Source of the DNA: Limonium bicolor
Taxonomy: Eukaryota > Streptophyta > Magnoliopsida > Caryophyllales > Plumbaginaceae
Assembly (NCBI GenBank): GCA_023374045.1
Contig: CM041776.1
Location: 117,199,000 to 117,262,999, forward strand
Direction: 5' to 3'
Length of the DNA: 64,000 nt
The position numbers and the translations under genes are program-made. The notes under the pieces are model-generated. The model searched no databases. It had not been told where the DNA came from and saw nothing but the letters and a program-made list of their open reading frames with translations. This document shows positions 14,160-41,456 of this stretch, in pieces (position 1 is the stretch's first letter; every line of letters starts with the position of its first letter).

Positions 14160-15691
14160 TGAAATACCCCTAACCAATTAAACATTGATTAAAAATTTAA
14201 TGAATTAAATGAAGGCCTAAACATGCCTTAAAACCAATTTAAAAACAACAATGGTCAACATAAAGCAAATATTGCACCCTTTGACCATTTAGGGTAAATA
14301 TATACCCAAATGAACTCCTTAGGACCTAAAATTTTTTCATAAGAATATTAACACATAAATGAACGTAATACAATTATTGGAAAACACTCTAACAACAATA
14401 ACCAACATTAACATGCTTAAAAGTCACTTAGAGCAAAATGTGCTCTAAACAAGTTTTAAAGGTCTTGTGACCTCCGTTTGATTCCAAATTGGATTCCTAA
14501 GCTTAGTAATCATGTAATGGATGTAAGTAAACTATTACCAAAGAAAACCAAGCTCAAAAGCAAGCTTTAACACAAAATGTGCACTAAGCTTCCTTAAAGC
14601 ATATTTTTGTGAGATTGTCTTCAAAATGAGTTTTGTTTGATTTTAGGGACTTGATTACCCTTAAATATACTAATGTGACGTAATGTATCACATTATAATG
14701 TCTAATTCAAAGTTTTTCAAAAAAAATCAGAAATATGTGCCTTGATTGTGTATAGTACTTTAATAACATGTAATTCCTTAATCTAGTCAATGGTTAACTT
14801 CTTTCTTTGACCTTGACCATATAATGCCGTCCAATTTACAGCTTTCCCTTATCAAGTAGCCGGCCATACTTATACATATACATGACTCCAAAAGTAACTT
14901 TATTAAAGGAAGATAAGTACTACTTTACAACAATAAACTAATCAAACTTACCTTTCCACCTTGGCTACTTACTTCCGCCTGCTTGGTGTGTCATCCTTAT
15001 CCATTTGCAGGCTTAAAATACCTACTAAAGAGTCATCAATTACCACAGATAAAATATGAGTTTTATAACATGTCTACACTTAACATATATTAAGCCAAAA
15101 CAAACATTTCCCCACATTAGTCCTGCATAGCCGGCAGTTGATGAGGCTTTCCCGATGCTTAAGAAACCCACAAAAATATCTAGGATGAGTCATGCTTGAA
15201 CTATTGACTAAAATATGACTTATCCCCTTATAAGATAATTTTTCTTCCTTCTCTCATTCACCTTTCTTCTTTCAGCCGTAAGCAACCCAAACCCTCTATT
15301 TTGTTGCTTCCAAAACTGGTGGCAACCACCAACTTCCATGGTCAACACCTCATGCTCTAGGTAAGCTCTCATTAAATGGATATGCTCATTATCTTACTTT
15401 CTTCTTCTCCTTTCCATTGAACTCACCCATTCCCATTTCCATCTAGCAACCTAGACCGAGTTTGTGCTTGAAGTAGAGGAAGTTTTCGGCTGGAACTAAG
15501 AGAAGAAAGGGAAGCAAGTTCTAGCAACTTCTTAAGGTAAAAATCATGCATTAAGCCACCTTATCCTCCTTCTCCATTTCCGGTTGTGTTGCTCAGCTTC
15601 CTTAACTTATTTCCTTGCTATTTTCATGTAAAAATCAGCTGAAACACTCACACCTTGTAGGGGTAAATAGATCCAAGCCAAGGAACACTAC
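14160..15691 (+). repeat. LTR, first part, interrupted by element A
   Basis: Starts TGAAATACCCC at 14160, possibly after target site TACTA, in the orientation opposite to element A. It is homologous to the LTR starting at 63241: both share blocks around AAAATGTGC, CCAAAGAAAACCAAGCT-type and AAAGCACATTTTTG. It is split at 15691 by element A and resumes at 30096. Confidence 0.65.
15687..15691. other. Target site duplication, left of element A
   Basis: ACTAC directly before the LTR terminus TGTAACACC, repeated at 30096-30100. It confirms the element limits. Confidence 0.9.
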
Positions 15692-17290
15692 TGTAACACC
15701 CCAACCGCTAATCCGTCCATTATCCTCTAATCATTCCCATAATTACCTTACTCGCAGCGGAATACTTACCTACTCCCGGCGGGTGATACAACGCCGTTAG
15801 CCATCCAAGACTAACAAGGTTACTACCACTTACAGTAACGGTCTGACGATTAGAATATACCAGATACATATTAAGTTACCTTACAATACCAAATACTTAC
15901 TTACACATTGATTACTGAGTTTCCAAAATATATAAATTACATTCCAAGACTATTCCCAAAATTACGAGTTTGTACATCCACTCCTTTCTATGCAATCATG
16001 AATTCATTATTCAAAAAAGTGTACCACATGGTACACCGGCTACTCAAAAAGGCCTTAGCCGAGTACAACTCGGTACACCATTCCAATCCTACTAACTACC
16101 CAAAAGAATTCAGCATGGTCCTTACTCGACCATCACGCCTCGCGGGTACCTGCAGAATAAAAACATTCCCCCTAGGGGGTCAGCTTACGCTGAATATGAT
16201 AACCGCATACCCCGCGTACTAGTGAGGGTACGCCAACTATTTTGTCGAATACATGCGGTTCGTTTCATTCATACATACATACATACATGCTTTATACAAT
16301 ACAATTCAATACATTCATTTCACAAGGCATACATACATTCAATTCATACAAGAGAGACATTACAAGTCAACCGTTCATGCATACCAGATACTCACCACAA
16401 TACGGAGATACACTTCTCCAATTCATACAAAGGTCTTGTTAGCTTCATTACACACCCGGGTTAATCGGGTGTTCAATACTCTTTTACTCAAGGTCAATGA
16501 CTTACAATAGTCAAGACCGATACACATACAATACTTACTTCTTACTTACTTTACTCAAGTCAAGTCGGTATGACCTCCGGGCAGGGATTACTACATCCCA
16601 CCACCGGGCTTTAGGGTGGCCCACTAATCCAGGATGCTACCCATTCAAGGGGATTGGTCCATGGAAAAGATTACAGCCAGGATTCGGATCCAACCTCTTG
16701 TTTTCCTTATCCTCACGCGTGGCCGAAACTATATCGGACTTCTACTCATTCCATTTACTCATTACTCATGTTAGGAGTTAGATTGTTAGGAATTAGTAGA
16801 AGTCAGTACTTCATTCCCATACATCAATACAATACACAAGTACTCATTACATACACATACATTCCATTCCCATTCATACATTTCATGAATTATACAAACT
16901 AAATGTTCAAGAAGATACACAAGAACAAAATAGTTCAAACATAGTTAAGTGCAATATAAGTCCGAATTGTGCATTTATCTTATTGGTGATCACATAAGCA
17001 CACAAATCGGGGTAACCAAGTTAGGATACAGGGCATGAAGAAATCATATCGTTCACCGTCGTATTCGTACTACCGGGTCCTTCGGTGTTCAACTATTCGA
17101 TTCCTATACATACATGAAGTTGTAGGATCAATGATCTATTACTGATCCAACTTATTCCTTCATTAATATTCCTAATGTACCCATACTATTCCTTTACATT
17201 CATACTGGATTATTAAACCCATTTTTTTCTCATTACCTCTTATTCTTGCTTTCTTACTCATGTACTTACTTTCTTACCTTTACTACTTCA

Positions 17291-17296
17291 TTTATA
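17291..17296 (-). promoter_or_regulatory. Putative TATA box of 3' LTR
   Basis: In element sense ACTATAAATG, downstream of the hairpin array and beside a (TA)n tract. Prediction from motif and position only. Confidence 0.4.
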
Positions 17297-17415
17297 GTGT
17301 ACTACTATATATATATATATATATATATATATGCATTTATGTATATAGGCATATATATGTATATACATATGATTACTATAATCATATAATAAAACATTTT
17401 TTTTTTGTTTTGACT

Positions 17416-17813
17416 CGACCGACCTTACCCAGGGTCGGACCCAAGGTCGGTCGAAGTCAGTAAGTTTCGTTAAGGCAAAATTCCAGGCTCGACCGACCTT
17501 GCAAGTCCGGTCCCAAGGTCGGTCCATTCCAGTGGGTTACATACGTGAAAATTTTAGGCCCGACCGACCTTGCAAGTCCGGTCCCAAGGTCGGTCCGTTC
17601 CAGTGTGTTCTGGGTTCGAGTTTCTAGACTCGACCGACCTTGCCCAAGTTTGGTCCCAAGGTCGGTCCATTCCAGTGGACTTCTGGCCTTCGCAATTTAC
17701 GACTCGACCGACCTTGCAAGTTCAGTCCCCAAGGTCGGTCGAAGTCAGAAGACTTCTCGTCTTTGTATTTTAAGGCTCGGCCGACCTTGCGGGCTCGGTC
17801 CCAAGGTCGGTCC
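17416..17813. repeat. U3 array of six GACCGACCTTG/CAAGGTCGGTC hairpins (3' LTR)
   Basis: Six copies, starting near 17416, 17490, 17561, 17631, 17704 and 17777, with spacing of about 69-74 bp. Each is a ~37-bp imperfect inverted repeat, CGACCGACCTTG...CAAGGTCGGTCG-like. In element sense the array lies about 120-520 bp upstream of a TATAAA, in the promoter-proximal U3. Confidence 0.9.
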
Positions 17814-19687
17814 GGCCCAGTACTTCAGTTTTAAAATCTGTTTTTGGGTGTTTTCTTTACCCATTGTTTCCCTAGTCTTAACTAATACATCCCCACATGA
17901 TTTAGCACTAACGTAACCCTCTAAATCACCTTGGTACAACCACCAAACTCGTTACTCAATCCTAGATCCACTTACACATTTCTTCTCATTTCAAATCAAC
18001 ACTTATACTAGTTCTCATTTCACCAATGCTACAGATTTTGGTTTTCTTCATTATGCTACAGATTTTTCCCTCAACTCTTATCCTCCAATAATCCTTTCAC
18101 TAATGCCACTCTTAGCATCTTAAATACATTAACTCACATCCTAGTTCCATCCCATTAACAAACTCATTCCCAAATCTGTTTCAAGACACCTAACTATCCA
18201 TTTTAACTCTTCAAATGCACCTAGTCACTACCTAGGTTATTTCCTCTTCTAAAACCACTAAGTCCTCAAGTTCCTAGACAAAATTTGACATAGTCTCCCC
18301 TATAATTCTCACTTTGCCCACACACTATTTCGTTCACCCATTGCTCATTTAAACAACCTGTTTATTCATTACATTATACTCATAAAATAACTCCACAACA
18401 CACATTAAAATTCCTATACATGCCCAATCAATACCCAAGGTTTACCCAAGCTTTTAAACATCTTTTACAAGTTAAAAAAAAAACTGTTTGATTCTCTTCT
18501 CCATTACACTACTACATTACTACTACTCATACTACATACATTACTCATTTTTGATACTTAAAATCTGTTACAATACAATACCCAAAACTAACTCAAGGTA
18601 AGAGTATTTACCTTGTCTTGCTAGTTTTTCTTTCTTTCCTTTCCTTCTCTTCTTTTCCCCTTTCCTTCTTCTTGTTCTCGGTTTATGTTCAAGGAATAGG
18701 CAATGCTACAGCAACCCTTACCAATACACATAAACACTTAGCATCCATTTTAACTAACCCTAGAATTTAGATGTTTTAGGGTTTAGAAAATAATATTACC
18801 TTCCAGCCAATGTATGAGGTCCTTGTCTAGCAAGAGAACAAGATTCCTAGCCCAAAAGAGTAGCCAAAATCAGCTGGAGCATGAAGAGCAAGGAGGTGAA
18901 GGTGCTTCTAATTGTGGACTCAAATCTTCAAATGGCCTCCACCCATAAAAACGAAACTTGAGCTTTTAGATTTTTGAAAGGAGGAAAGTGTTCTCCTTTG
19001 CAAGGGGATTCCAATGGTACTAATTTTGTAATTTTTGGAGAAGGATTAATGGGTTAACAAGAGGAGAGAAGGTGGAAGTTGAGTGAGCTCCTTCATTTCT
19101 CCATGGCTGTCGCAGGAGGAAGAAGAAAATTCAGAGAAGGAGGGAGATGGGTGCTTGAGAGAGAGGTAGGATAGGAGAGAGTGTGAGTTTTGCTTTTACT
19201 TATTTTTCTTGTCTTTTAGTAAATCAGAGAGAGTTAGGTGAGTATGAGAGAGAGGGGCAAATCGGCCAGCCCATACATACACACACACACACACACAGAT
19301 TTTACTTTTTATTTGCAATGAGGACACATTAACTTTGTTTATTTACACTCTCACCCCACAACTTCCCGGTTGTTACAGTTTTTACTAACCGGAACCCGTT
19401 TTCTGGAATTTTCTCGTTTAATTAATTTTATTGGTTCCCAACCTTTATTAATGTTTATTAATGACTATTTGGTTGACCAAAATCGTTACGAGTCTATTTG
19501 ACTCACTTAAAGTCGCGTTTTCCCGGTTTCCTCGAAGAACGCGCTTTAAGGTTCGTTTATGTTTTTAACCCATTTTAAAGGTCCGTTTTCTTCGGGATTT
19601 GTTCCCTCATATTTATTTGAGTGTAATTAAGCCTTTAACATTATAATTAGCCTAATTAATTACTGTTTTTAATTACGGGGTATTTCA

Positions 19688-19700
19688 ATCTACCCCCCTT
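19688..19700 (-). other. Polypurine tract
   Basis: In element sense it reads AAGGGGGGTAGAT, directly before the 3' LTR. It primes plus-strand DNA synthesis. Confidence 0.85.
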
Positions 19701-20144
19701 AAGGAACTTTGCCCTCAAAGTTGCTCAAGGTTTACGGTTTACTATTCTACTCATTTGGCAAGCCAATTGCCACAATTCTTGCACTACAAGCGTACACAAT
19801 TCAAATGCCATACACCACTCAATTCAAATACCATACACAATGCACAATCCAATTCACACATTCCACAATACATTTCACAATACCATTCACATACCATACA
19901 GCACAAATGCATTACTCATTACACACATACCATATACATACCGTACTCATTGTGTTACATACCGGAAACTCCTAGCACTACCTTGTGCCAATAAATACCA
20001 TTAGCACTACATGCGCCAACAAAATACAATTACAATACATACATACTATGCAATGCTAACCCGAAGCAATGCAAAAGCAAAAGGCTCTACCCCCCTTAAA
20101 AGGGGTACGCCCCGTACCCTCCATACTATACGGATACTAGACAT
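19701..20144 (-). other. 3' untranslated region of element A
   Basis: The region between the pol stop and the PPT. It is rich in CATACA/CAATTCA simple motifs, with a CTCTACCCCCCTTAAAAGGGG block at 20085-20105. No gene is visible. Confidence 0.6.
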
Positions 20145-20937
20145 CTAGTCTACAAATAGATTCGGGTACTTTGCCTTCATGGTGTCCTCTAATTCCCAAG
20201 TCGCTTCCTCGACATCGTGGTTAGACCACAAGACCTTCACCATTCGTACAGATTTATGGCGAGTGTCCCGTGTCTTTGTATCAAGGATTCGTAATGGAGT
20301 CTCGACATATCTCATCGTCGGCTCTAGGGATAGATGTTCGGGTTCTAATACATGAGAGGGATCGGCTATGTATTTCTTGAGTTGTGATACATGAAAGACA
20401 TCATGAACACGCCCCAATTCTTCAGGCAATGCTAGCCTATAAGCTACGGCTCCAATCCTCTCGGTAATGGTATACGGGCCTACAAATTTCGGGCTCAGTT
20501 TGCCCTTCTGGACAAATCGAAAGACGCCTTTCATAGGTGAGACACGCAGGAACACTTGGTCACCCACGGCGAACTCAAGGTCGCGTCGTCGCACGTCCGC
20601 ATAGGATTTCTATCTATCTTGGGCGACATCTTAATCGAAGCATGATAGCTATTGTTATACGAAAACTCGATAAGATGAAGCTTCTCAATCCAGCTCCCCT
20701 AGAAGTCTAAGGCACATGCCCTAAGCATATCCTCTAGTGTTTGGATGGTCCTTTCTGTCTGACCGTAGGTCTGTGGATGGAAGGCGGTGCTAAGCTTCAA
20801 CTCAGTACCGCTTCCCGTGTTGCTCTCCAGTATCTCGAAAGAAATCTGGTGTCGCGGTCAGATACTATGGTTTTCGGGACTCCGTGGTGTCGGATGATCT
20901 CCCTGTCGAATAGCTCCACAAGCTTCGCCAGCTTCTA
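20145..20937 (-). pseudogene. Integrase core end and chromodomain-like tail of element A pol
   Basis: After the TAG at 20935 the frame continues with [16 protein letters not shown] (second Asp) and a QTERT segment (Glu). It is broken by TAG codons at 20699 and 20610 and by a deletion near 20620-20630 that removes the usual loop before the QDRQKSYAD-type segment. The last 149 codons (20594-20145) are open and include GPYTITERIG, DVFHVSQLKKYI and a terminal VEEATWELED, typical of chromoviral tails that direct insertion to heterochromatin. Confidence 0.85.
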
Positions 20938-21825
20938 GGTGTCCCTCATCGGAATGAATCGGGCAACCTTGGTGAGACGATCGACTACTACCCAGATCAT
21001 GTTGAGTCCTCCCCTAGCAGGTGGGAGTCCAACAACAAAATCCATAGAGATATCGTGGAATTTCCACTCCGGAATGGGCATGGATTGCACCATTCCTCCC
21101 GGTCTTCGGTGCTCAAACTTCACCTTTTGGCATGTGAGACACCTCAGAACATACTCAGTCACGTCTGATTTCATTCCTGACCACCAGAAGTACCTCTTCA
21201 TGTCTTTGTACATCTTAGAGGCTCCCGGATGGACATGCAATGTCGAACAATGTGACTCTCGCAGAATGTGATCCCTTAGCTCAGCATTGCTTCGGGGGAC
21301 GCATAATCTGCCATTCAATCGGATCAGACCATCTTCATGCAGTTTGAAGTCATACTTTCGGCTCTCAAAGGTACCTTCTGTGATTTTCTGTCTGATCTCT
21401 GTGAAGTAAGGGTCGCTCAACTGAGCGTCTCGCACCTCGTCAACCAAGCTAGAAGAAGCGAGTAGCGAATGGAGCGAGTGTGCTCGACGACTCAGGGCGT
21501 TGGCTACAACATTTGCCTTCCCTTCTTTATATTGGAGGTTGATGTCGTAATCTGAGAGGAACTCCATCCACCTCCTCTGTCTTAAATTCAGTTCTTTCTG
21601 TGTGAATACATACTGCAAACTTTTGTGGTCGGAGTAGATGGTGATGCTTACCCCATAGAGATAGTGTCGCCATATCTTCAAGGCGAAGACAATGGCCCCT
21701 AACTCTAGATCGTGTGTCGGGTAATTCTCCTCATGCTTTTTCAGCTGGCGGGAGGCGTAAGCTACTACCTTGCCATGCTGCATGAGTACGCATCCCATGC
21801 CCTTGCCCGCTGCATCACAATACAC
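20935..21825 (-). pseudogene. RNase H and integrase N-terminal/core part of element A pol
   Basis: The RNase H block starts [11 protein letters not shown] (first catalytic Asp), followed by a Glu in DLELGAIV and an Asp in [10 protein letters not shown]. The fourth acidic residue, normally Asp in an ADALSR motif, is Asn here (NVVANALSR), so RNase H is probably inactive. The integrase HHCC zinc finger spans [12 protein letters not shown] to CLTCQK, and the first core Asp lies in SMDFVVGLP. The frame ends at a TAG (20935-20937) after PMRDT. Confidence 0.87.
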
Positions 21826-22951
21826 CTAAAATCCCTCTATGCCCTTTGGAAGTGTGAGAATTGGCGCTGAGGTCAATGAGTCTTTTAGGCTCTGGAAGGA
21901 TACCTCACACTCGTCTGTCCATACAAACAGTGCATCTTTCTTCATCAATGACGTCATGGGCTTAGCGACTTTTGAGAAGTCCTTTACAAACCTCCGATAA
22001 TAACCGGCTAAACCAAGAAAGCTCCGGATGTCGGTAACAGTCTTAGGTCTAGGCCATGATCGCACTGCTTCGATTTTGGATGGATCTACTGAAATACCTG
22101 TGCTCGAGATGACATGACCAAGAAAAAATACCTGATCTAGCCAAAACTCGCATTTGGAGAACTTCGCATACAGTTGGTTCTCGCGCAGTGTCATAAGTAC
22201 TCTTCTCAAATGGTTTTCATGTTCTTCTGCTGACTTCGAATACACAAGGATGTCGTCGATGAATACTACTACTGAAGTGTCCAGCTGATCACTGAATAAC
22301 CGATTCATTAGGTCCATGAACTTGGCTGGTGCGTTAGACAAACCGAATGGCATCACCGTGAATTCATAGTGGCCATATCTTGTTCGGAATGCTGTTTTCT
22401 CGATATCTTGCTCTTTAATAGCAATTTGGTGGTATCCGGATCGGAGATCAATCTTAGAAAAGACCGAAGCTCCCTTCAACTGATCGAACAGTTCGTCGAT
22501 GCGTGGCAATGGATATTTGATCTTTACAGTGACCGCATTCAATTCGCGGTAGTCGATGCAGAGGCAGACTACCGTCCTTCTTCTTCACGAAGAGGACCGG
22601 TGCTCCCCAGGGTGATACGCTCGGCCGTATAAACCCTTTGTCGAGAAGATCACGTAGTTGCTCTTTCAGCTCTGTCATTTCTGCTGGTGCCATACGGTAT
22701 GGAGCCCTAGCAATGGGACCAGTACCAGGTACAAGGTCGATTTCGAACTCTACTGCTCTCTGTGGTTGCATACCAGGTAGCTCTTTCAGGAATACATCAG
22801 GGAATTCTGAGACTACTATTACATCATCACTGAATTCTGGATCTCTCTCAAGGTCTTGCACATGGCATATATACACTTCATGTCCTTTCCTGAGCTCCCG
22901 GTACATTGCCATAGCGGAGATGACTGTAGTTGAAGGCTCTCTCGGTCTCTA
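21826..22951 (-). pseudogene. Reverse transcriptase part of element A pol
   Basis: Copies element RNA to DNA. Recognisable blocks in order are [95 protein letters not shown] and LGHVIS, then the connection segment [11 protein letters not shown] one-base loss near 22560 shifts the frame between KKKDG and the following [12 protein letters not shown] block. A TAG at 21826 replaces the Gln expected before VYCDA. Confidence 0.88.
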
Positions 22952-23379
22952 GCGGTATGAAACAGTGACCCCAGATGGACTCTTGAGCAGCAATCGGTGC
23001 TCGGCGCATAGGATCCGTCCCTTGTGCCATTCCAACCAGTTCATTCCGATTATTAAGTCGAATCCCAACCCGTTGAATTCGATGAAGGAGATGGGAAACG
23101 CTTCGCCTTTGATTTGAATTGTGGCGGTGTGGTAATACTTAGTACACTTCACACGCTCCTTCGACGGGAGAGTAACCAAGAAATTTGGTAGCTCATCTGC
23201 GTCTAGCCCCAACCTTGTAGCGAATGATGGCGATACAAAGGTGTGAGAGACGCCGGAGTCGAATAGTACTGAGGCTTCGATGCCGTTTACTGGGAATGTT
23301 CCCATTAGAATGGTGCCGCTTTTGCCGGCTTGCTCTTCGGTGAGGATACTTAGGTTACCTTCGGTACCGAGTCGACAAC
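22949..23379 (-). pseudogene. Aspartic protease part of element A pol
   Basis: The active-site motif is LFDSGVS and the second conserved segment is FDLIIGMNWL. The flexible N-terminus (TEEQAGKSGTILMG) is the usual chromovirus lead-in to the protease. The open frame ends at a TAG (22949-22951) just after a VSYR segment. Element B has a glutamine-containing linker at this place. Confidence 0.85.
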
Positions 23380-23522
23380 CTATGGATTCATAAGATTATA
23401 AGTAACGATGGTGGAACGCAAGTGGAATTTAATAACCAACTCTGCTTTTATTGAATAAACCAACCATCATACATAATGTGTCTCTAATACACATTACTAC
23501 TGGATTACATGCTACTACAAGA

Positions 23523-24262
23523 TTAATACTTTCTAAAGGTAAGGTTCAGGCGTCCTGGTTTCATGTGTGTGGCATTGATTATTGCCGGTGGTGCCGTATT
23601 CAACTTGATCTTATGGATACCGTGATACATCAACCTTGATTTCCCACCCATGATTAGGACATCTCCTGATCTCAATACCAATTTCTCTGCGAGGTCCACA
23701 CTCTTCTGCTCGCTATACAAAAATACGGTATCATCACCAATGGACCAAGACACTACGGGCACTCCTAGTTCAAGAGATTCCGTCGTCTCGTCCTTATCTT
23801 GGTGTAAGCCAAGTCGTCCTTCTTTCTCATAGAAGTTGACGATACATAAGTCTGCTTCGAGTGCAGGGACTGGTTCATCTTCGCATTGTTGTGCAATTTC
23901 TACAGCTTGAGTGACAAACGTTTGGTATTCTGGGGGTATTGGTGGAGGTTTTGCTCCGTCTCCTGCTCGCGTCATCTGGTTTGTCTTGGTATAAGGGTTC
24001 CAATCCTTTCCCAAGCACATCATTTTCAACTTCATTGTAGCTCCACCGGGGAATTCGGGTGTATAAAATCCTCCTGGACCCATTCCTAACTCGTTGCATC
24101 GTCGAATGATTGAAACTTGTGCTTCGGGTGTCAGGTATCCTTTTAATAAGATCATACCTGGGCAGATGACCTGACACTGCTCGTTGTTGAAGTAGTGAGT
24201 GGCGATGTCGGTCTCTTCATGAGGTGAGTTCGAAGGTATTGGGTAACAGATAAGGAATTTCC
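23523..24262 (-). CDS. AlkB-type Fe(II)/2-oxoglutarate dioxygenase carried by element A
   Basis: Predicted nucleic-acid demethylase of the AlkB/ALKBH1-like superfamily, inserted between gag and protease. The frame is open from a splice acceptor (CCTTAG|GG) at 24262 to the stop at 23523. The first Met in frame is at 24155 and gives 210 residues. Numbered from that Met, the fold markers are complete: N107 and Y109 in VNFYE, iron ligands H118 and D120 in GLHQDKDE, H178 in MYHG, and the 2-oxoglutarate arginine pair R202/R208 in GRLNLTFR. Family knowledge: such enzymes oxidatively remove methyl groups (m6A, m1A, 6mA) from RNA or DNA. The GMILLKGYLTPE-type start and overall pattern resemble plant cytosolic or nuclear ALKBH1-like proteins, which suggests capture of a host gene. 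No stop or frameshift is present, unlike gag and pol on either side. Substrate and activity are inferred. Confidence 0.9.
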
Positions 24263-24451
24263 CTAAGGTGGTACATTATATCTAGTGTGAGTTCTAGGCT
24301 TACTAGTTCATTTCATACTCAATACATACTTCCAAGTTACTTACTCATGCTCAATTTCATACTTCAAGTACTTACGCATTCATGCTCCCATTCATACAAT
24401 TACTTTGATACTTAGACATGCTCTTCAAGGATTAAAGGTTACGGTAGTTAC
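24263..24451 (-). other. Predicted intron joining gag to the AlkB exon (element A)
   Basis: 189 bp: donor CCCAG|GTAACT, acceptor CCTTAG|GG. The upstream exon leaves one base of a codon and the AlkB exon supplies two, so Gag and AlkB are in frame. The counterpart in element B is 186 bp (41891-42076) with the same phase. Confidence 0.65.
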
Positions 24452-24796
24452 CTGGGCCGGACTTAGTCTCGGTCCCGTCACGGTCAATGATGTGTAAGGC
24501 CGGCTGCCTCTGCGGTGCGCCCTTCTGCAGACCCCGAGATCCCTGTCCCTGTGAGGCATGCTGGGCATGTGCGTCGCCAGATGTAACCTCCTTGCCTTCA
24601 CGCTGCTTATAGCCCCGATAGTTGCCCTTGGGCCTAGAATTTTCTGGGCATGCATTAGCACGGTGCCATGGTTTCTGGCAGTTGTAGCAGCGGATCTCCC
24701 TTCCTTGGCAATCAGTGCCGGGATGATCCTTGTTGCAGTTTCGGCATATTTAGCTGTGGCCATCAGTTTAGTTCTTGCCATGGCCAAATCCAGAAC

Positions 24797-24889
24797 CTAT
24801 AGCTTCCAAGTTAGCAAGGTTCGGTATACTTACAATACTCCATATACATACTATTCCACAAGTGTACTAATTCGGTTTCGGGTTCTTAC
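24797..24889 (-). other. gag intron 2, element A (predicted)
   Basis: 93 bp in phase 1: donor AAGG|GTAAG, acceptor CTATAG|GT. It follows a PLRSQPYK segment, and the element B counterpart at 41457-41525 follows PLRSQPFQ. Confidence 0.68.
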
Positions 24890-25163
24890 CCTTATAGGGT
24901 TGAGACCTCAGTGGCTTCGCTGCCACTGGTGCGGTGTAGCCAAGCTGCAATGGCTCAGCTGCCTTGCCCTTCTCAGTATGGGCACCACCATCTCCTGAGG
25001 TGTTCTTCTGGTGGGAATGCTTCCCCTTCTTCTTCTTCCAAGGTTTGGCTTGGTTTTGGTCGTCGGAGGTGTTACCCTTGCTGCTCACCTTGCGCTTCAG
25101 CGCTTGCTCCTCATCTCTTAGTTGGCAGGTGATCTCAACTCGAGATGCAGCGTGGTTACACTC

Positions 25164-25252
25164 CTGAATTACTTAGGCATTAGGTTACACATTTACATAC
25201 GGGAATACTGATTCGCATTACTCATGGCTTTTAAGGGTTCATCATCGTTTAC
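25164..25252 (-). other. gag intron 1, element A (predicted)
   Basis: 89 bp in phase 0: donor CAG|GTAAACG, acceptor ATTCAG|GAG. It interrupts the reading frame between the FTSLQ and ECNHAA segments. It matches the phase-0 intron at 41179-41245 in element B. Confidence 0.7.
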
Positions 25253-25871
25253 CTGGAGGGAGGTAAACCGTGTGAAGCCCATGCCATACCGGAGTCGATG
25301 GCTCAATCCGCCATAGAAACGGTCGACCAAGACTTGGCCGGTATACCCAAGGTCGGGTAGAAGTCTGAGAAGAGAGGTGAAGGTGCGGTAATATTCATCA
25401 ACCGTCATCTTCTCTATCATTTTTAGGGCATCTAGCTCAAGCCGTTTCTTGGTCTTGACATGCTCGGGATAGTACTTAGATCGGAGGAGAGAGGTGAATG
25501 CTTCCCAACCGAATGCAGGGTCTGCTACGTGATCGGCCTTTATGAGCTTCCACCAGTCCATAGCCGCGTCCTTGAGGTAATACGCAGCTATCCTCACTCG
25601 AACTCCAGTGGGAGTCTCAAGTGTCTCGAATGGCGTCTCCATCTCGAAGAGGTCGAAGGTCGGCGACGGCCTTTACCCAATTTGTCTCACGGGGATGAGG
25701 TGGGTCGGGTTGTTGCTGCTGCTGCTGTTGGTTTTGCTGTGTTGCTTGTATAGCGGTGATTACTTACGGTAGCATCTGTGCTACCGTGGTGGCGACGATC
25801 TCAACTATCGTCTGCGCGCCCGGTCTATCAGATGTCTCTCCTCTAGGTCGGCCTCGACCTCGTCTTGACAT

Positions 25872-26080
25872 CTGAACAAGTGTGGATTACATTAGATACG
25901 GTGAACTATGACCACATGGTCTTGATTCAAGCAATGGTATCGTCTTTGCAGACGTCAAGGGGTATCCGTTATTGCTAACGGTGGTTCCTAGTTAGGTGTC
26001 TAATTCTCCGTTGTAAAACGGTTTATAACCTAACTCGGTAATCACTACACTCGGTATTCTAATCATCAGAGCGAGAATTC
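25872..26080 (-). other. 5' leader of element A between PBS and gag
   Basis: About 200 bases of untranslated leader. A GAGCGAATTC/GAATTCTCGCTC inverted repeat overlaps the PBS side and could form a stem near the dimerisation/packaging region. No ORF is visible. Confidence 0.5.
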
Positions 26081-26092
26081 GCTCTGATACCA
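26081..26092 (-). other. Primer-binding site, tRNA-iMet
   Basis: In element sense it reads TGGTATCAGAGC, five bases inside the 5' LTR. This is the standard plant initiator-Met PBS and sets the direction of the element. Confidence 0.92.
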
Positions 26093-27653
26093 CTTTTTAT
26101 AACACCCCAACCGCTAATCCGTCCATTATCCTCTAATCATTCCCATAATTACCTTACTCGCAGCGGAATACTTACCTACTCCCGGTAGGTGATATAACGC
26201 CGTTAGTCATCCAAGACTAACAAGGCTACTACCACGTACAGTAGCGGTCTGACGATTAGACTATACCGGATACATATTAAGTTACCTTACAATACCAAAT
26301 ACTTACTTACACATTGATTACCGAGTATCCAAAATATATAAATTACATTCCAAGACTATTCCCAAAATTACGAGTTTGTACATCCACTCCTTTCTATCCA
26401 ATCATGAATTCATTATCCAAAAAGGTGTACCACATGGTCCTTACTCAAAAAGGCCTTAGCCGTGTACAACTCGGTACACCATTCCAATCCTACTAACTAC
26501 CCAAAAGAATTACGCATGGTCCTTACTCGACCATCACGCCTCGCGGGTACCTGTAGAATAAAAACATTCCCCCTAGGGGGTCAGCTTACGCCAACTATTT
26601 GGTCGAATACATGCGGTTCGTTTCATTCATTCATACATACATACATACATGCTTTATACAATACAATTCAATACATTCATTTCACAAGGCATACATACAT
26701 TCAATTCATACAAGAGAGACATTACAAGTCAATCATTCATACTTACCAGATACTCACCGCAATACAGAGATACACTTCTCCAATTCATACAAAGGTCTTG
26801 TTAGCTTCATTACACACCCGGGTTAATCGGGTGTTCAATACTCTTTTACTCAAGGTCAATGACTTATAATAGTCAAGACCGATACACATACAATACTTAC
26901 TTCTTACTTACTTTACTCAAGTCAAGTCGGTATGACCTCCGGGAAGGGATTACTACATCCCACCACCAGGCTTTAGGGTGGCCCACTGATCCAGGATGCT
27001 ACCCATTCAAGGGGATTGGTCCATGGAAAAGATTACAGCTAGGATTCGGATCCAACCTCTTGTGTTTCCTTACCCTCACGCGTGGCCGAAACTATATCGG
27101 ACTTCTACTCATTCCATTTACTCATTACTCATGTTAGGAGTTAGATTGTTAGGAATTAGTAGAAGTCAGTACTTTATTCCCATACATCAATACAATACAC
27201 AAGTACTCATCACTTACACATACTTTCCATTCCCATTCATACATTTCATGAATTATACAAACTAAATGTTCAAGAAGATACACAAGAACAAAATAGTTCA
27301 AACACAGTTAAGTGCAATATAAGTCCGATTCGTGCATTTATCTTATTGGTGATCACATAAGCACACAAATCGGGGTAACCAAGTTAGGATACAGGGCATG
27401 AAGAAATCATACCGTTCACCGTCGTATTCGTACTACCGGGTCCTTCGGTGTTCAACTACTCGATTCCTATAAATACATGAAGTTGTAGGATCAATGATCT
27501 ATTACTGATCCAACTTATTCCTTCATTAATACTCCTAATGTACCCATACTATTCCTTTACATTCATACTGGATTATTAAACCCATTCTTTTCTCATTACC
27601 TCTTATTCTTGCTTTCTTACTCATGTACTTACTTTCTTACCTTTACTACTTTA

Positions 27654-27659
27654 TTTATA
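27654..27659 (-). promoter_or_regulatory. Putative TATA box of 5' LTR, element A promoter
   Basis: In element sense CTATAAATAAAG, at the position matching 17291-17296 in the other LTR. This copy would serve the element A transcript. Confidence 0.42.
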
Positions 27660-27748
27660 GTGTACTACTACATTTATATATATATGCATATATGTATATA
27701 CATATGATTACTATAATCATATAATAAAACATTTTTTTTGTTTTGACT

Positions 27749-28146
27749 CGACCGACCTTACCCACGGTCGGACCCAAGGTCGGTCGAAGTCAGTAAGTTT
27801 CGTTAAGGCAAAATTCCAGGCTCGACCGACCTTGCAAGTCCGGTCCCAGGGTCAGTCCATTCCAGTGGGTTACATACGTGAAAATTTTAGGCCTGACCGA
27901 CCTTGCAAGTCCCGTCCCAAGGTCGGTCCGTTCCAGTGTGTTCTGGGTTCGAGTTTCTGGACTCGACCGACCTTGCCCAAGTTCGGTCCCAAGGTCAGTC
28001 CATTCTAGTGGACTTCTGGCCTTCGCAATTTACGACTCGACCGACCTTGCAAGTTCGGTCCCCAAGGTCGGTCGAAGTCAGAAGACTTCCCGTCTTTGTA
28101 TTTTAAGGCTCGACCAACCTTGCGGGTTCGGTCCCAAGGTCGGTCC
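27749..28146. repeat. U3 hairpin array (5' LTR copy)
   Basis: The same six-copy array as at 17416-17813. Several substitutions weaken individual arms (for example GGTCAGTC), while the spacing is kept. Confidence 0.9.
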
Positions 28147-30095
28147 AGCCCAGTACTTCAGTTTTAAAATCTGTTTTTGGGTGTTTTCTTTACCCATTGT
28201 TTCCCTAGTCTTAACCATTACATCCCCACATGATTTAGCACTAACGTAACCCTCTAAATCACCTTGGTACAACCATCAAACTCGTTACTCAATCCTAGAT
28301 CCACTTACACATTTCTTCTCATTTCAAATCAACACTTATACTAGTTCTCATTTCACCAATGCTACAGATTTTGGTTTTCTTCATTATGCTACAGATTTTT
28401 CCTCAACTCTTATCCTCCAACACTCCTTTCACTAATGCCACTCTTAGCATCTTAAATACATTAACTCACATCCTAGTTCCATCCCATTAACAAACTCATT
28501 CCCAAATCTGTTTCAAGACACCTAACTATCTATTTTAACTCTTCAAATGCACCTAGTCACTACCTAGGTTATTTCCTCTTCTTAAACCACTAAGTCCACA
28601 AGTTCCTAGACAAAATTTGACATAGTCTCCCCTATAATTCTCACTTTGCCCACACACTATTTTGGTTCACCCATTGCTCATTTACACAACCTGTTTATTC
28701 ATTACATTATACTCACAAAATAACTCCACAACACACATTAAAATTCCTGCACATGCCCAATCAATACCCAAGGTTTACCCAAGCTTTTAAACATCTTTTA
28801 CAAGTTCAAAAAAAAAACTGTTTGATTCTCTTCTCCATTACACTACTACATTACTACTACTAATACTACATACATTACTCATTTCAGATACTTAAAATCT
28901 GTTACAATACAATACCCAAAACTAACTCAAGGTAAGAGTATTTACCTTGTCTTGCTAGTTTTTCTATCTTTCCTTTCCTTCTCTTCTTGTCCCCTTTCCT
29001 TCTTCTTGTTCTCGGTTTTTGTTCAAGGAATGGGCAATGCTACAGCAACCCTTACCAATACACATAAACACTTAGCATCCATTTTAACTAACCCTAGAAT
29101 TTAGATGTTTTAGGGTTTAGAAAAGAGTATTACCTTCCAGCCAATGTATGAGGTCCTTGTCTAGCAAGAGAACAAGATTCCTAGCCCAAAAGAGTAGCCA
29201 AAATCGGCTGGAGCATGAAGAGCAAGGCATTCAAAAACTGAAAATTCTCATAATGCAAACAAGGGCTAGAAATGGTGGGTTTTCGAATTTCTTTTTACCT
29301 CAAAGTAACAAGGAGGTGAAGGTGCTTCTAATGGTGGACTCAAATCTTCAAATGGCATCCACCCATAAAAACGAAACTTGAGCTTTTAGATTTTTGAAAG
29401 GAGGAAAGTGTTCTCCTTTGCAAGGGGATTCCAATGGTACTAATTTTGTAATTTTTGGAGAAGGATTAATGGGTTAATAAGAGGAGAGAAGGTGGAACTT
29501 GAGTGAGCTCCTTCATTTCTCCATGGCTGTCGTAGGAGGAAGAAGAAAATTCAGAGAAGGAGGGAGATGGGTGCGTGAGCGAGAGGTAGGATAGGAGAGA
29601 GAGTGAGTTTTGCTTTTACTTATTTTTCTTGTCTTTTAGTAAATAAGAGAGAGTTAGGTGAGTGTGAGAGAGAGGGGCAAATCGGCCAGCCCATACACAC
29701 ACACAGATTTTACTTTTTATTTGCAATGTGGACACATTAACTTTGTTTATTTACACTCTCACCCCACAACTTCCCGGTTGTTACAGTTTTTACTAACCGG
29801 AACCCGTTTTCCGGAATTTTCTCATTTAATTAATTTTATTGGTTCCCAACCTTTATTAGTGTTTATTAATGACTATTTGGTTGACCAAAATTGTTACGAG
29901 TCTATTTGACTCACTTAAAGTTGCGTTTTCCCGGTTTCCTCAAAGAATGTGCTTTAAGGTTCGTTTATGTTTTTAACCCATTTTAAAGGTCCGTTTTCTT
30001 CGGGATTTGTTCCCTCATATTTATTTAAGTGTAATTAAGCCTTTAAAATTATAATTAGCCTAATTAATCACTGGTTTTAATTACGGGGTATTTCA

Positions 30096-30100
30096 ACTAC
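30096..30100. other. Target site duplication, right of element A
   Basis: ACTAC directly after the LTR terminus GGGGTATTTCA, matching 15687-15691. Confidence 0.9.
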
Positions 30101-34979: not shown

Positions 34980-35242
34980 TAGATTCGAAACTGCTGTTTT
35001 CTGATTGTTGGATTAGTGTGATTTTTAGGGTGTGAATTAGTGTTTGAGATTGTAAAAATGTTAGATATGCGATTAGAAATTAGGGTGTGATATCTGTGTA
35101 GTTTAGGGTTACTAATTTATGAATTGGGGTGAAATTTGTGTAGTTTAGGGTTACAATTAGAAATTTAGGGTTTTAAATTATTGCAAAATTTAGGATTAAC
35201 TTGTATGTTTTTATGATTCCGTAAATAACAAGGGATTATATG

Positions 35243-36101
35243 CGGGGGCATAGCCAGAATTTTGAATTTGGGGGGGCAAAGATTTTTTTTTCCGCAACAT
35301 ATAGTGTACACTTGATTATATATTGAGCAACCAATATCGTGTGTTATAGTATCGACAACAAAAAACAACACACAATATGTATCTATTATACGACAACCTT
35401 TAAACAAAAGATAACTAAGAAATAATTTCTTATTCGTTACGAAAATAATTCTTACTACATAATCAAAAAACCAAGTAGCTGAAAGTTATTTCAAGATAGT
35501 TGTCTTCGGGAAGGTATTGCAATCGAATTGAATTTGAACGTGATAAAAAAGAAGTTTTCGGGAAGCTTGTGTCAATTTGAGAGGAAACTCGCGTACCTCT
35601 TTCTTTAACGTTAATATTGTTTAAGAACACTTTGCTCCTCTCCTCTCTTTCATCATCATAATAATAATTAGAAATGGAATCAAATTATCTTATTGATTTA
35701 ATTATTGTAGTTTCATTTTGTCAATTTGGTTTATTAAACTATAGAAAACTAAATAGAAGAAATCTAAAACTTAATTTTAATATAAAAAAATCATCAATTA
35801 TCAATTAACCGACGCTTAGACTTGGTTAATCGAAACTGAATCCTCAATTGGTGTATTTTGTTTTTAATCTTGATATGTTAGTTTCAGTGTTATACGCTAT
35901 AGAAAAAAGAATCTTTTTTTGTTACTTTCCACTCCACATTAATCTCTACATAAAATACAAAAAGAGAAAAACATTATATGCAGTTAGAAGATTTATATAT
36001 ATTGTGGGCCACCATAAAAACTAATATATATTTCTGTTGATTTTTTATTTTATTGGGGGGGCTAAACACCCACCTGCCCCCCCCCCCTTCCCTCCGCCTC
36101 T
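35243..36101. mobile_element. 859-bp non-autonomous DNA element with 9-bp target duplication
   Basis: Flanked by GATTATATG at 35234-35242 and 36102-36110. The left end is CGGGGGCATAGCCAGAATTT and the right end is C-rich (CCTTCCCTCCGCCTCT), giving loosely inverted GGCGGAG/GGCATAG ends. A 9-bp duplication suggests a Mutator-like element. The interior is AT-rich with no ORF. Confidence 0.65.
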
Positions 36102-37117
36102 GATTATATGTGAACTTGAATTACGGATTTAGCTTTGGAATTAAAGTTAAATTGAAGTGGACAAAAAATTTGAATTGATAAAATTAAGGTTTCTGGAAAA
36201 TTTGGGTAAAATGATGATTATGAGAAAATTGTGACCGGAAATGCAATTGAAGAAATCATTGTTTACGAAATTTGAAATTTTGTTATACTTTGTGGTTCAT
36301 TTGCTCATGTGGGTTTGGTCTTGTTGCAGTTGCTCATCTGGTTAATTAGGCCATTTCATTAAGCCATTGATCGGATCTGGCTGCTTAGTGTGACGTACCG
36401 CGCGAGCTGCCGGTCGTCGCAAGATTCGAACCAGGCCGCACACAAGCAGCAAAAAAGGTTAGCATATTTAATCCGAATTTATGAATTGTAATTGGCATAA
36501 TTATGGTATGATTTATTAATAAAAAATGTTGTAATGCAGTTGTTGATTTCTAATTTAGTTGTGTGTGGATAATTGTATATAGTTATATTGTTTAGTTAGT
36601 TAATTAGTTATGCATACAATGTTTGAATTTGTTTGTCGTGGTAAATAAGATATTGGTGAATGCTTAATGATAAGCATGGGATTAGCATGATTACACAAAG
36701 GTCATGCCGAATTTTTTCAAGAATTGTATTAGTTTTATTAATTAACTTCAATTATTTGTTGTTTGTGTGTAACAATTAATCTTAACTTTTCTTTGACAGG
36801 TCTTCTGCATATTCAGTCGACTTCGTACCAGTATTTCCTTGCCCATCATCAGATAAGTCTCCTACCTTTCCCCTTTGCACAACTTAAAGCAAGTAAGTAT
36901 TTAAATTTTAGTTTTTTGTTTTAATAAATTAAAATGTCATGAGTTGTTGATGTTATATAAATAACTACTGTCTTAATTACTTGTGTTGGAATTATTAGAG
37001 TATTTAGGCTAGCTATGTTAGTTTGGTTGGTATCGTAGAGCAGTGCTTAGTTTGGTTGGAACCTTGGAGCAGTGATTAGTTTTCACATATAGAATGGAGC
37101 GTGACTGGATGTACGGT

Positions 37118-38984
37118 TGTAACACTCCTACTAATCCGACTCCTAATCATAGTATAAACGTCATACTTAGTAATTAAATCGCAGCGGTAAATAACAGAAT
37201 GTCGCTCTAACGGCGTCACTGTTATCACTCGCCCATACGGGTGATAACGAGATACACGATAATCAACATACGAAACGTATTCCTGCAGTGACCACAAGAG
37301 ATAGATAGTAATGCTTAAGTAAAACTAAAATATATACAACAACAACCGTCTTATACAAAAACCGTACACGTGAGCGTCTAACCAAATATATACACCTCGG
37401 TTTACAGAACCCGAGTCCAAAATAACTGTAGTATCAATCCATACCAAGTCTAACCAAAAGTAAAATACAACTGTTGCGCCCCTCGTCGACCCTCCAGCTA
37501 GTCTCCTGAAATAAAAATGGTTTGTGGTATGGAATCAGCCCCTGCTGAGTATGTTATCACATGCCCCGTCATGCCTCCTCAAGCCCCTCAATTAATTGGT
37601 CGAGAGCATGAGATTCGTTACATGCAATACCGTTTTAATATTTAAACTGTAAAACGTTTAATAGTAATATCCATACAATAACACAACCATCAATACACAT
37701 AATATAAACCACACAGTATAACCAATGAACAGCAAGGCGGAACAACGAGAATAATAAACAAGTATCAACTCCCGTCCTTGGTATAGAAACCAATATTGTT
37801 CGCCAATATACGAGTCTCAACTGAAATAAGTGTTCAGTTATACCTAGTGACAACATCTCGTTAAAAACGACGTGTCTCTAAATTACCCATATACTATGGC
37901 GGGTCACCCATGGTAGTAGCCACTCCAGCGGTAGAGTCTCCGACCAACGAGCCATCCTAGCTCACGGGAAATTTTCTTGATACTTGTGGACCCGTACGCG
38001 GACATCCTGGTATCGTTTTTGTGATCACAGCGCGCACCAAGAGCCACATCCTCTTGGCTTTGTTATGTTAATTAATTATACCATCGCATCGCATTACCAA
38101 TTTTTCTAACACAACAGACTAAGGTCGTTAGTCCAATCCGGAGTCTGTAAGCTCGGGATCCAGTGTTAGATACGAGAGCGGCGTTAGAAAGGACAATGCT
38201 CCGTATTAAAGTCTCGGATAATATGTATATCTTATTATCCTAGTGCTACAACGTTTTTCTGACGATCCTTATATTACATATAAGATAGCACCATAGCCGC
38301 TAGTTCGTTTTATATATATATGTCCATATATAAGAACCAATACTGTTAACGCAACAACAGTAATAATAAGCAGCTAATAATATACAGTTCATGCATATTT
38401 ATTCACACAATCAGACAAACAATCTTATCACAGATTACACAGAAGTCTGAACTGAGGAAGCCCTCAGAGACAATCAGTGACACATAACAACATACCGTTC
38501 ACCCTGAATGTATAACCGTGGAGTACGAATCAGCTAGATCCGATGCACCCCGTGTCGTCTCTAACAGTCTAATAATACATAACGCTACTGATTAGAATCC
38601 CGTATAACGACATAACTCTACGGTACCCCGTACCGTCACTAACACCTCCCGGTTAATCCCCTGTTATTAACTGTCAACGTTTGTCGGGTGTTTTGCTTTA
38701 ACTCGGGATTGGAAAAACGTTATATTACATGCGTAGTCTCGTCTTGTATATTAATATACTTAAAGTTTGAACTTTGTTATCGCATGTAATCCAATATACC
38801 CTTGTATATTATATAGCTTGTTTCTATATTGCATGTATAATTCTTAACCATATATTATACATTCCACCTTAGTATTTATTTTCCTAAGGTATGTTTTTCC
38901 TAGTTTAATGTAGTATAATTCATATATAAAAATACTTTGAATTATATAAATCCTTATTATTCCATTTAACCTCATAACATTAAA
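37118..38984 (-). repeat. LTR fragment, minus orientation
   Basis: Starts TGTAACACTCC at 37118 and then follows the element A LTR plan (AATCGCAGCGG, CTAACGGCGT and CGGGTGATAA blocks, ACATACCGTTCACC near 38490). The expected GGGGTATTTCA end is missing; it stops at the direct repeat starting near 38985. No coding sequence is visible. Confidence 0.6.
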
Positions 38985-40275
38985 CGATTAATCAGTAAGT
39001 GAAGAAGGCTGTTAGGTTTATAAGTCTCTTGACTAATCGACATTTGGGACACCTTAATTATAGGGTACTTTTGGGGAATCACTTATACGAGCTAGCTATT
39101 GTTCTTCACGTACCAGGTACGATTTCTCGTACTCAGCTTGTTGTGTTTTGGACTCTATGGAATGTTTTGTACGATTCCTCGTACTCCGATATTTTTGATG
39201 ATTGACTTGTGGAATGTTTTGGGAAACGCTAACTAACTTTAAGAGGAATTTCTAAAAAGGAATTGGTTGTGTGACTAACTCAGCTTGTGTGACTAACTGA
39301 GCCTTGAGTATGAAACTTACATGGTATTGGTTCCTTCTATTTGGTGTCCCGTTAGACATTGACTGCTTAGGGTTTACGCTTCTGCACTCTGTAGGACTGA
39401 GTGTTTTGGTATTGCTCTGGGTAGTTGGTGATCTAGTGGGGATTTGGAAAAGGTCAATCTTGGAAATCTTTCCTTCGACGTGCGCGCGTCTTTAATGGTA
39501 ACAGCAAGGGGCTGTATATCCCTCGCCCATAGGGGCATTGATATTTGACAGCAGGGGGCTGTATATCCCTCGTCCACTAGGACATTGATATTATGACAGC
39601 AGGGGGCTGTATGTCCCTCGTCCATACGGACATTGATATTTGACGGTGGGGGCCATCTCTCCCAGTTAAATTATTCCACTCTTGAGTTCTTGATTCTTGG
39701 ATCTATTTCATCATTCCTAGTCCTTTGTGACTATCTGAGTTTTCTACTCCTAACGGGAATTGGGTTTAACTAAGGAAATGGATGTCCACTACTTCATGGT
39801 GTGATTTTGTTCACTAACTTTATCTTTCAGTGATTAACTTTTGTTTTATCTTGATATTTTGATTTGGTGAATTGTGAAATGCTTTATTCCTCTGAGTGTT
39901 TTAAGTGTTTGTTTTCAAGTTATTATTTATTTAAGAATTGTATTTTAAGTTGTTTTTGGAGGATCGTACCAGTTCCATTCCAGGGAACTGACCCACCCCA
40001 CTCGGGGTGGGCTGCTTGGTTTTATCTTGCAGGTACGTGTTATCTTACAGGTGGCCACGAAGAGAAAGAGTGATTGGGATGGGATTAGGCTTGGAGAGTT
40101 TATACGTTTTATTACTGCTTATTTTTTGTTAAAGTTTTCTCGTGGTTCAGGCCGTGACTTTTGTAATCATTAAGTTGTGCTTTGGTGAGGTTGGTACCGG
40201 GTGTTTGGAACCCGATGATCTGTACGTCTTTAGTATTTTATTTCCGCTATAAATATGTTAAATAGGGGCGTTACA
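38985..40275 (+). repeat. 3' portion of element B 5' LTR
   Basis: Ends GGGGCGTTACA at 40275, five bases before the PBS. The left limit is the point where similarity to 44420 starts. The plus-strand ORFs inside it (38999-39205, 39304-39495) recur in the second copy only because the DNA is duplicated. Confidence 0.75.
39499..39645. repeat. Three tandem copies of an about 49-bp unit in the LTR
   Basis: Units begin with a CAGCAGGGGGCTGTATATCC-type segment at about 39502, 39550 and 39598, each ending CATTGATATT. The second LTR copy (44937-44988) contains only one unit before it is cut. Confidence 0.85.
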
Positions 40276-40280
40276 GAAAT

Positions 40281-40292
40281 TGGTATCAGAGC
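40281..40292 (+). other. Primer-binding site of element B, tRNA-iMet
   Basis: TGGTATCAGAGC, five bases after the LTR terminus TTACA; the same spacing and tRNA as in element A. Confidence 0.92.
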
Positions 40293-41178
40293 GTAGTTAC
40301 GCTCTGAACCCGAGAAAAACAAGCCGAGTGAAATACTTAGATTATAAGTGCACTTAAAACTGGGGAACTGGGGTAGAATTGGGAAGTGAGAATTCTAGAA
40401 AGGCGCGTGACCCTACCCCATACTTACTACTTATGTTTTAATTCATGTACATACGAACCGTCCTTAGGACGTTATAAATGTTAATACATAGATAGTTAGA
40501 CTTTACGATACGCCTTCTGAGTAACAACAACCGTCATACCAGCTAGATGTCTCGAAGAGGAGGAAGACTGGACCCTCAGGAGGCTTTGGACCAGACGCTG
40601 TCACCCCGGAGGTCATAGCACAGATAGTGACAGCTGCATTGGCCCAGCAGCAGGCTCAGATCCCACAGCCACCACCACCACCACCGAATGGTCCCCGGGA
40701 GTTCAACTGGCTGAAGGCGGTTAACGACCTTCGTCCTCCCATCTATGAAGGCCAGCCAGAACCGAGGACGTTGGAGAAGTATATAGACGAGATGCAGAAG
40801 GCCTTCACCTCTCTGCATGTTCCAGTGAATCGTCAGGTGGACATAGCGGCCTACTTTCTTCAGGGACCCGCGCATCGATGGTGGCAGACCGCTAGAGCCG
40901 AGCTGACGGCCCAGGCGAACTTCGACTTCCAGGCATTTCTGGTGGCCCTGAGAGCTAAATTCTATCCATCCTATCTACAGAAGAGGATGAGGAGCGAGTT
41001 CGAGCAGTTGAAGCAAGGGAGTCTTTCTGTTGCTGAGTACCACAACAAGTTCGTGGAACTACTTGCTGTTATTGGAGAGGGAGCTTACGCTCCAAGATAT
41101 CTGGTGGACAAATTCCATACCGGCCTGAACTTCAAGATCATGACTATGATCGGGTCCACCAGAGGGATGACTCTACAG

Positions 41179-41245
41179 GTATGGAATGTGATTTAAAATT
41201 TCTGGTACACAAAGGTTTCTCCACTAACATATATTGTCACCACAG
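41179..41245 (+). other. gag intron 1, element B (predicted)
   Basis: 67 bp in phase 0: donor CAG|GTATGG, acceptor CACCACAG|GAG, with a CTAAC branch-type motif near 41224. It contains an in-frame stop, so removal is needed for Gag continuity. Confidence 0.72.
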
Positions 41246-41456
41246 GAGTTAGCGGAGGATGCGAATGACTGTGAGACGACCATTGCCTACCAGGACTCTG
41301 TGCTAGGCAAGAGGAAGGGGAATGGAGAAAGAGGGAATGGAGGAAACTTTTCCCAGAACTACGAGAGGAAGGGAAAGTTTTACAAGGGGAGGGATGAGAA
41401 GGCTATGGTCCCCGCCTATACTAATGCTGAGCCACTCCGCTCTCAGCCATTTCAGG

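Follow-up and report, generated by a model that had tools for sequence, protein, structure and literature searches.

Why does a long terminal repeat (LTR) retrotransposon carry a sequence for an AlkB-type demethylase, and is this sequence a working part of the element? The question is raised by a stretch of 64,000 nt of Limonium bicolor DNA (GCA_023374045.1, CM041776.1, 117,199,000-117,262,999, forward strand; called the window in the following). In this window an AlkB exon is located on the minus strand between gag and protease of a 14.4-kb LTR retrotransposon, here termed element A (15692-30095). A preliminary description had claimed an open AlkB frame with all ligands for Fe(II) and 2-oxoglutarate (2OG) at this position, and both claims are borne out: the ligands are conserved as detailed below, and the frame is flanked by the Pfam domains PF03732 (gag capsid) and PF08284 (protease), within the LTRs and a target site duplication (TSD). 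Altogether, the data support an AlkB-type domain that is intact and under selection inside an LTR retrotransposon. The preliminary description was right in this; it had overlooked the introns as well as the alternative exon and a likely fusion to Gag.

The AlkB exon (23523-24262, minus strand) comprises a leader and a 210-aa AlkB domain and ends with its own stop codon. The stop-free frame spans 23526-24275, and the form starting at the ATG is 210 aa long (23523-24155). The leader (24156-24262) precedes this ATG and contains the motif F[D/L]IC..CQVxxPGM; position 24262 is the first base past the inferred AlkB splice acceptor. A profile search, which had been named in advance as a check that might refute the assignment, places the frame in the AlkB family, with PF13532 (2OG-FeII_Oxy_2) matching residues 1-208 (E 5.4e-41, 141 bits, cut-off 31). 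The Fe ligands H118, D120 and H178 (HxD..H) are invariant in both protein alignments (A1 and A2), and the 2OG arginines R202 and R208 (RxxxxxR) are at least 90% conserved in them. Subfamilies A, C and D retain the Fe ligands, as do four database proteins (P0001-P0004), and the 2OG arginines are likewise kept wherever the sequence extends so far (P0003 stops short).

An AlphaFold2 model of the domain (predicted local distance difference test score, pLDDT, 82.5) was compared with solved structures. The closest one is rice OsALKBH1 (PDB 5xeg as the best match, also 5xoi) with a template modelling (TM) score of 0.90 and 50% identity. Scores are 0.74-0.79 for E. coli AlkB, 0.52-0.61 for human ALKBH1, which is thus far from the model, and 0.56 for human ALKBH5, a value that does not place the domain with the ALKBH5 type known from orchids. 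Many of the named database matches are titled ALKBH1C/D or DNA N(6)-methyladenine demethylase. Judged from sequence and modelled fold, the retrotransposon domain is of the plant OsALKBH1 type. The earlier suggestion of an ALKBH1-like protein therefore holds for the plant group, where OsALKBH1 is the nearest solved structure, and does not extend to human ALKBH1. The domain is predicted to be an active Fe(II)/2OG demethylase of this plant type.

The copies of the element in the genome were sampled in two ways. A search with the element A protease gave 150 scored loci, 30 of which were taken, the window's own included (protease sample). Another 28 A copies (L004-L031), again including that of the window, were picked by AlkB itself (AlkB sample) and are biased for selection estimates; because of this choice the protease sample was used for selection. 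Per genome query 150, 150, 150 and 81 matches were scored, and the approximately 35,000-50,000 first-look candidates per query are unconfirmed. AlkB was found at the same place and at the same distance in 30 of the 30 protease-chosen loci, and a one-off capture or chance insertion is rejected by this result. Absence of the insertion from all other copies had been named as a finding that would refute the preliminary description, and this refutation fails.

The ratio of nonsynonymous to synonymous substitution rates (dN/dS) for AlkB in the protease sample is 0.22 in frame, versus 0.80 and 1.17 for the two off-frame readings. The protease itself has a dN/dS of 0.039 in this sample, in which the loci were picked on protease. 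For the 28 AlkB-chosen copies the values are 0.145 (AlkB) and 0.126 (protease). The non-coding sequence between the AlkB stop and the protease acceptor (23380-23522, minus strand) shows 0.029 differences per site in the protease sample, compared to 0.0995 at synonymous sites of AlkB, and since its divergence is below that of the synonymous sites, it may hold signals. A possible internal poly(A) signal, AATAAA (23447-23452, minus strand), is located 70 nt past the AlkB stop and is present in 28/28 AlkB-chosen copies and 29/30 protease-chosen loci.

How such an exon could be expressed was read from the gag region. The window contains a second, diverged element (element B, 40.6-44.4 kb, plus strand) with gag, AlkB and protease-reverse transcriptase (RT) in the same order as in element A, and the intron limits were read by side-by-side comparison of both elements, with GT..AG at matching positions. 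In element A, on the minus strand, gag exon 1 (25253-25642, from the first ATG of the frame) encodes the capsid and is followed by intron 1 (25164-25252, GT..AG). Exon 2 (24890-25163) is entered in phase 0 and left in phase 1, and intron 2 (24797-24889) is located before the zinc knuckles, two of which were read from the sequence of exon 3 (24452-24796). Exon 3 ends at a shared donor. Removal of intron 3a (24263-24451) links it to the AlkB exon, and removal of the whole AlkB-containing intron (23380-24451) links it to the protease exon. This single donor is in phase with both acceptors, which precede the AlkB leader and the protease, respectively.

The donor of exon 3, the AlkB acceptor and the protease acceptor are canonical in all 30 protease-chosen loci, and of the 28 A copies in the AlkB sample, 23 have all seven splice sites canonical. 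AlkB is in frame in 23 of the 28 and protease in 25; exon 3 is stop-free and in phase in 13, and six copies combine an open exon 2 with an open exon 3, each in the expected phase. Exon 3 of the window's element A copy holds two stops. Subfamily B was sampled with a B query (20 copies, L062-L081, element B included); all 20 have a canonical exon 3 donor and AlkB acceptor, 19 a canonical protease acceptor and 17 a canonical intron 2 acceptor. The phase fits for exon 3 in only 7/20, for AlkB in 15/20 and for the protease exon in 17/20. In subfamily D an AG acceptor lies ahead of the FDIC motif in 4/4 fetched copies, and the leader is open to the acceptor, in phase 1, in three of them.

If the element is spliced, genomic copies of the joints are expected, because spliced RNA would now and then be reverse transcribed. 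The genome was scanned with 37-38-base patterns of the joints, allowing up to three mismatches, with reversed patterns and a decoy joint as controls. The gag|protease joint was found at four loci, all exact, and the gag|AlkB joint at four loci with 0, 0, 2 and 3 mismatches. Joints lacking intron 1 and intron 2 occur at 69 loci (23 exact) and 22 loci (8 exact), respectively. The reversed patterns for all four joints gave no genome match, and neither did the decoy joint, which combines the same gag end with the AlkB ATG. At one gag|protease locus all three introns (1, 2 and the AlkB-containing one) are absent, and exon 3 is stop-free; two others retain introns 1 and 2, and the last retains intron 2, with intron 1 beyond the stretch. 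In the four gag|AlkB loci only intron 3a is gone, and the joint phase is that of the gag exon 3 frame. We interpret the joints as footprints of spliced RNA and infer from them that a gag-AlkB fusion is translated. Genome-wide, the intron 1 joint (69 loci) is far commoner than the gag|protease joint (four loci); this suggests that RNA spliced at intron 1 may be packaged more often.

The observations are thus that AlkB keeps its position, that its reading frame is under selection, that the splice sites are conserved with matching phases and that the genome holds copies of the joints. The explanation that we favour, and consider rather probable, is that AlkB is a fixed exon of a many-copy Ty3/gypsy element, which would make both Gag-AlkB and Gag-Pol by alternative splicing and package the predicted demethylase. 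Alternative splicing is likely because the genomic joints run from one gag donor to AlkB and past it to protease. The donor would choose either the AlkB acceptor, giving Gag-AlkB, or the protease acceptor, giving Gag-Pol. As part of Gag, AlkB could enter the virus-like particles, where it might strip N6-methyladenosine (m6A) or N1-methyladenosine (m1A) from the genomic RNA, or methyl adenine from single-stranded cDNA. The methyl groups removed would otherwise let the host restrain the RNA or block reverse transcription. Single-stranded cDNA is the second candidate substrate because ALKBH1 has been reported to act on N6-methyladenine (6mA) in single-stranded or unpaired DNA (available sections of PMC10469495), and alkylation repair is a third candidate role. 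More tentatively, and at somewhat less than even chances, a Ty3/gypsy lineage would have taken up an old host AlkB gene and used it as an alternative exon of the coat protein, so that every particle would bring along an eraser of nucleic-acid marks. This would be a packaged epitranscriptomic counter-defence, regulated by a choice between two acceptors and kept through radiation into several groups.

Several findings weigh against the favoured explanation. The four gag|AlkB loci are all decayed and none of them is open on both sides of the joint: in the frame of the joint, exon 3 has 2, 5, 2 and 4 stops (its length of 345 bases is preserved in two of the loci), and downstream of the joint the frame is open for 246, 36, 185 and 48 residues, with the AlkB side whole in one of the four. 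They retain introns 1 and 2 and the downstream protease region, and thus show neither a fully spliced gag-AlkB message nor the use of the poly(A) signal. Two of these loci are 99.3% alike (the others 90-93%), so the independent events may be only two. The AlkB leader has a weak dN/dS of 0.66 in the protease sample and 0.73 in the AlkB sample, and its frame is broken in 5/28 A copies. The AlkB frame is unbroken in just 12 of the 30 protease-chosen loci and broken in 18. Finally, in 19 of the 20 B copies the last 14-24 AlkB residues, with the 2OG arginines, are in another frame, yet subfamily B has spread; with the domain end out of frame, its AlkB is probably inactive. The broken copies and the shifted domain ends of subfamily B would suit a fragment of a host gene that was captured a single time and then carried along as a neutral passenger. 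This idea is largely refuted by the dN/dS of 0.22 with its off-frame control and by catalytic residues that are preserved between groups only about 60% identical, and we regard it as the least probable of the alternatives.

The decay of the gag|AlkB loci would also be expected if the gag joint were splicing noise and AlkB were translated from its own ATG into a separate protein of 210 aa, like the orchid ORF2. The ATG open reading frame is complete, and the leader constraint within subfamily A is weak. Against this stand the leader motif and frame, which are kept in A and D, in P0002 and in the fetched part of C; a leader that is alike across diverged groups fits translation from upstream. Moreover, the acceptor phase fits gag in A (23/28), B (15/20) and D, and an upstream in-frame ATG is present in only 7/28 A copies, which makes a separate protein an unlikely product. 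That the joints are no footprints at all and stem from ancestral copies never having introns or AlkB is very unlikely, even though AlkB-less relatives with zinc knuckles, protease and RT in one open frame are present in the genome (L082 and L083). Identity between the joint loci and subfamily A copies is 88-98%, compared to 39-43% of protease residues that the AlkB-less relatives have in common with A. Moreover, different introns are gone from different loci: introns 1 and 2 are retained at the gag|AlkB loci, and all three are missing from one gag|protease locus. A last alternative concerns function. AlkB might repair alkylation damage (m1A, and 3-methylcytidine, m3C) in packaged RNA or cDNA and be unrelated to regulatory m6A. 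The fold is closer to E. coli AlkB than to human ALKBH5, and RNA repair is cited as a postulated role of the AlkB domains of plant viruses (discussion of PMC9289625). The published link to plant transposons is m6A (available sections of PMC12786077), and we consider repair doubtful, if somewhat less so than a separate protein.

The framework of element A has the plan of a Ty3/gypsy chromovirus-type element, with LTRs, TSD, gag and the order protease, RT, RNase H and integrase. The element lies on the minus strand. The 5′ LTR (26098-30095, 3998 bp) and the 3′ LTR (15692-19687, 3996 bp) were delimited by comparison of both copies; their left end is TG in one copy and TA in the other, and their right end is CA. 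The TSD ACTAC is found on both flanks (15687-15691 and 30096-30100). The Kimura two-parameter (K2P) distance between the LTRs is 0.029, which corresponds to about 1.1-2.1 million years under two assumed substitution rates. Both LTRs hold 71-73-base tandem repeats (17477-17813 and 27821-28145). The primer binding site (PBS), TGGTATCAGAGC, is located at 26081-26092, and we take it to be the complement of the 3′ end of the initiator tRNA-Met; the polypurine tract, AAGGGGGG, is located at 19693-19700. Pfam searches identified the gag capsid domain in an open reading frame at 25642-25193, the protease exon start and protease at 22952-23379 (PF08284 in the open reading frame 23305-22952), the RT region at 21829-22912 (PF00078 in 21829-22542), where the frame is split, the RNase H and integrase zinc-binding domains at 20938-21825 and the integrase C-terminal SH3 with a weak chromodomain at 20148-20594. 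The chromodomain (PF00385) after the integrase has an E-value of 1.5e-4 and 22 bits, which is under the Pfam cut-off of 25.1. The pol of the window's copy is broken across several frames. The element may resemble the Tekay/Del clade.

Element B consists of the gag capsid (40627-41193), a broken AlkB exon (42077-42790; 56% identical to A over the longest match) and protease plus RT (43060-44394), all on the plus strand. It has an extra intron, GTATAC..TTGCAG, at 42961-43039 right before its protease, which element A is without; its donor is canonical in 20/20 copies and its acceptor in 19/20. Element B is flanked by a 568-base direct repeat (38983-39550 and 44418-44984, 99.3% identical) without TG..CA ends. 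The RT proteins of A and B are 81% identical (195 residues), and those of A and the AlkB-less relatives 72-75%. A genome query with P0128, a Ranunculus protein, gave 81 scored matches, each one open stretch and 54-61% identical, which we read from their sequences as a fourth element group, D (four were fetched). The host ALKBH1 gene of this species was not found with this query.

Where the domain came from was addressed with a tree of 61 rows, 12 of the element type and 49 selected host proteins. In the unrooted tree, element rows and host rows form the two sides of one branch with a Shimodaira-Hasegawa-like approximate likelihood ratio test (SH-aLRT) support of 100. When two of three distant outgroup rows were added, support fell to 73/70 on the element side and 58/88 on the host side, and the element rows were not nested. 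AlkB was likely captured once, long ago. In the protein database 7993 candidates were scored, 3576 of them with E<=1e-3; among the best 120 of these, only P0001-P0004 reach scores of the element type (348-407 bits, followed by 304 for the next protein). A search for AlkB within long annotated polyproteins (930 candidates, 194 with E<=1e-3) found no gag, protease or RT Pfam domain among the 120 matches listed. Its top three, Smallanthus proteins, were read as host-like with repeated AlkB stretches and were rejected, as were viral contigs (three loci) that are just 28-39% identical.

Elsewhere in the window, a tandem array of 180-base units (94% matches) is located at 61916-62795. The stretches 1-4861 and 55239-60099 are inverted and 82-86% similar; they are probably two copies of another element.

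If the favoured explanation is true, two unlike retrotransposons with AlkB domains of different types would each have acquired an eraser on their own. This suggests that plants and their transposons repeatedly contend over nucleic-acid methylation. A fusion to Gag would put the enzyme beside the genomic RNA and offers a way to test if LTR elements are limited by methylation of RNA or DNA. In addition, element A is a Ty3/gypsy element of plants in which gag has several introns, and genomic footprints allow their splicing to be followed. The open PMC literature yielded no paper on AlkB in a chromovirus, in a search that covered neither subscription papers nor preprints and was based on the text available there. 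Likewise, a gag fusion by a second acceptor, such a set of gag introns or an OsALKBH1-type element domain was not seen in PMC9289625, PMC12786077, PMC6317226, PMC11963269 and PMC8892269, as far as their text was available.

An AlkB borne by a retrotransposon is already known from orchids; the element type, the AlkB type and the expression scheme differ here. Gypsy_Pa_2799 of Phalaenopsis, an Ogre/Tat element, contains an ALKBH5-like domain that demethylates m6A in vitro, and in a screen of 121 genomes AlkB retrotransposons were reported only from two Phalaenopsis species (PMC9289625). Like element A, Gypsy_Pa_2799 is a Ty3/gypsy LTR element with an added AlkB (PF13532), many copies and preserved Fe/2OG ligands (PMC9289625). 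The orchid element is of the Ogre/Tat lineage and 25 kb long, with a tRNA-Arg PBS and a separate 565-aa ORF2 of the ALKBH5-like type (PMC9289625). Element A, compared with it by description, has a chromovirus-type order, a length of 14.4 kb, the PBS TGGTATCAGAGC and a gag-joined AlkB exon of the OsALKBH1 type. OsALKBH1 has the same ligands as the AlkB of element A and is a host gene outside any element. A precedent for a role of m6A is the element ONSEN, whose RNA is sequestered in stress granules when it carries this mark and is released by ALKBH9B (available sections of PMC12786077).

Ogre and EVADE are named as notable intron-containing plant LTR elements (PMC12786077, available sections). 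EVADE of Arabidopsis makes a short spliced gag mRNA besides gag-pol and has an internal termination signal (PMC8892269 and PMC12786077, available parts of both); element A has splice footprints and a conserved AATAAA, whose use would make it comparable to this short GAG (shGAG) type. According to these same parts, EVADE is a Ty1/copia element and its short product is Gag alone, whereas the splice in element A would add an enzyme exon, and its gag-pol frame needs splicing. In Ogre, partial splicing of an intron restores the full polyprotein frame (available sections of PMC6317226), whereas element A has three introns between capsid and protease, the last one containing AlkB.
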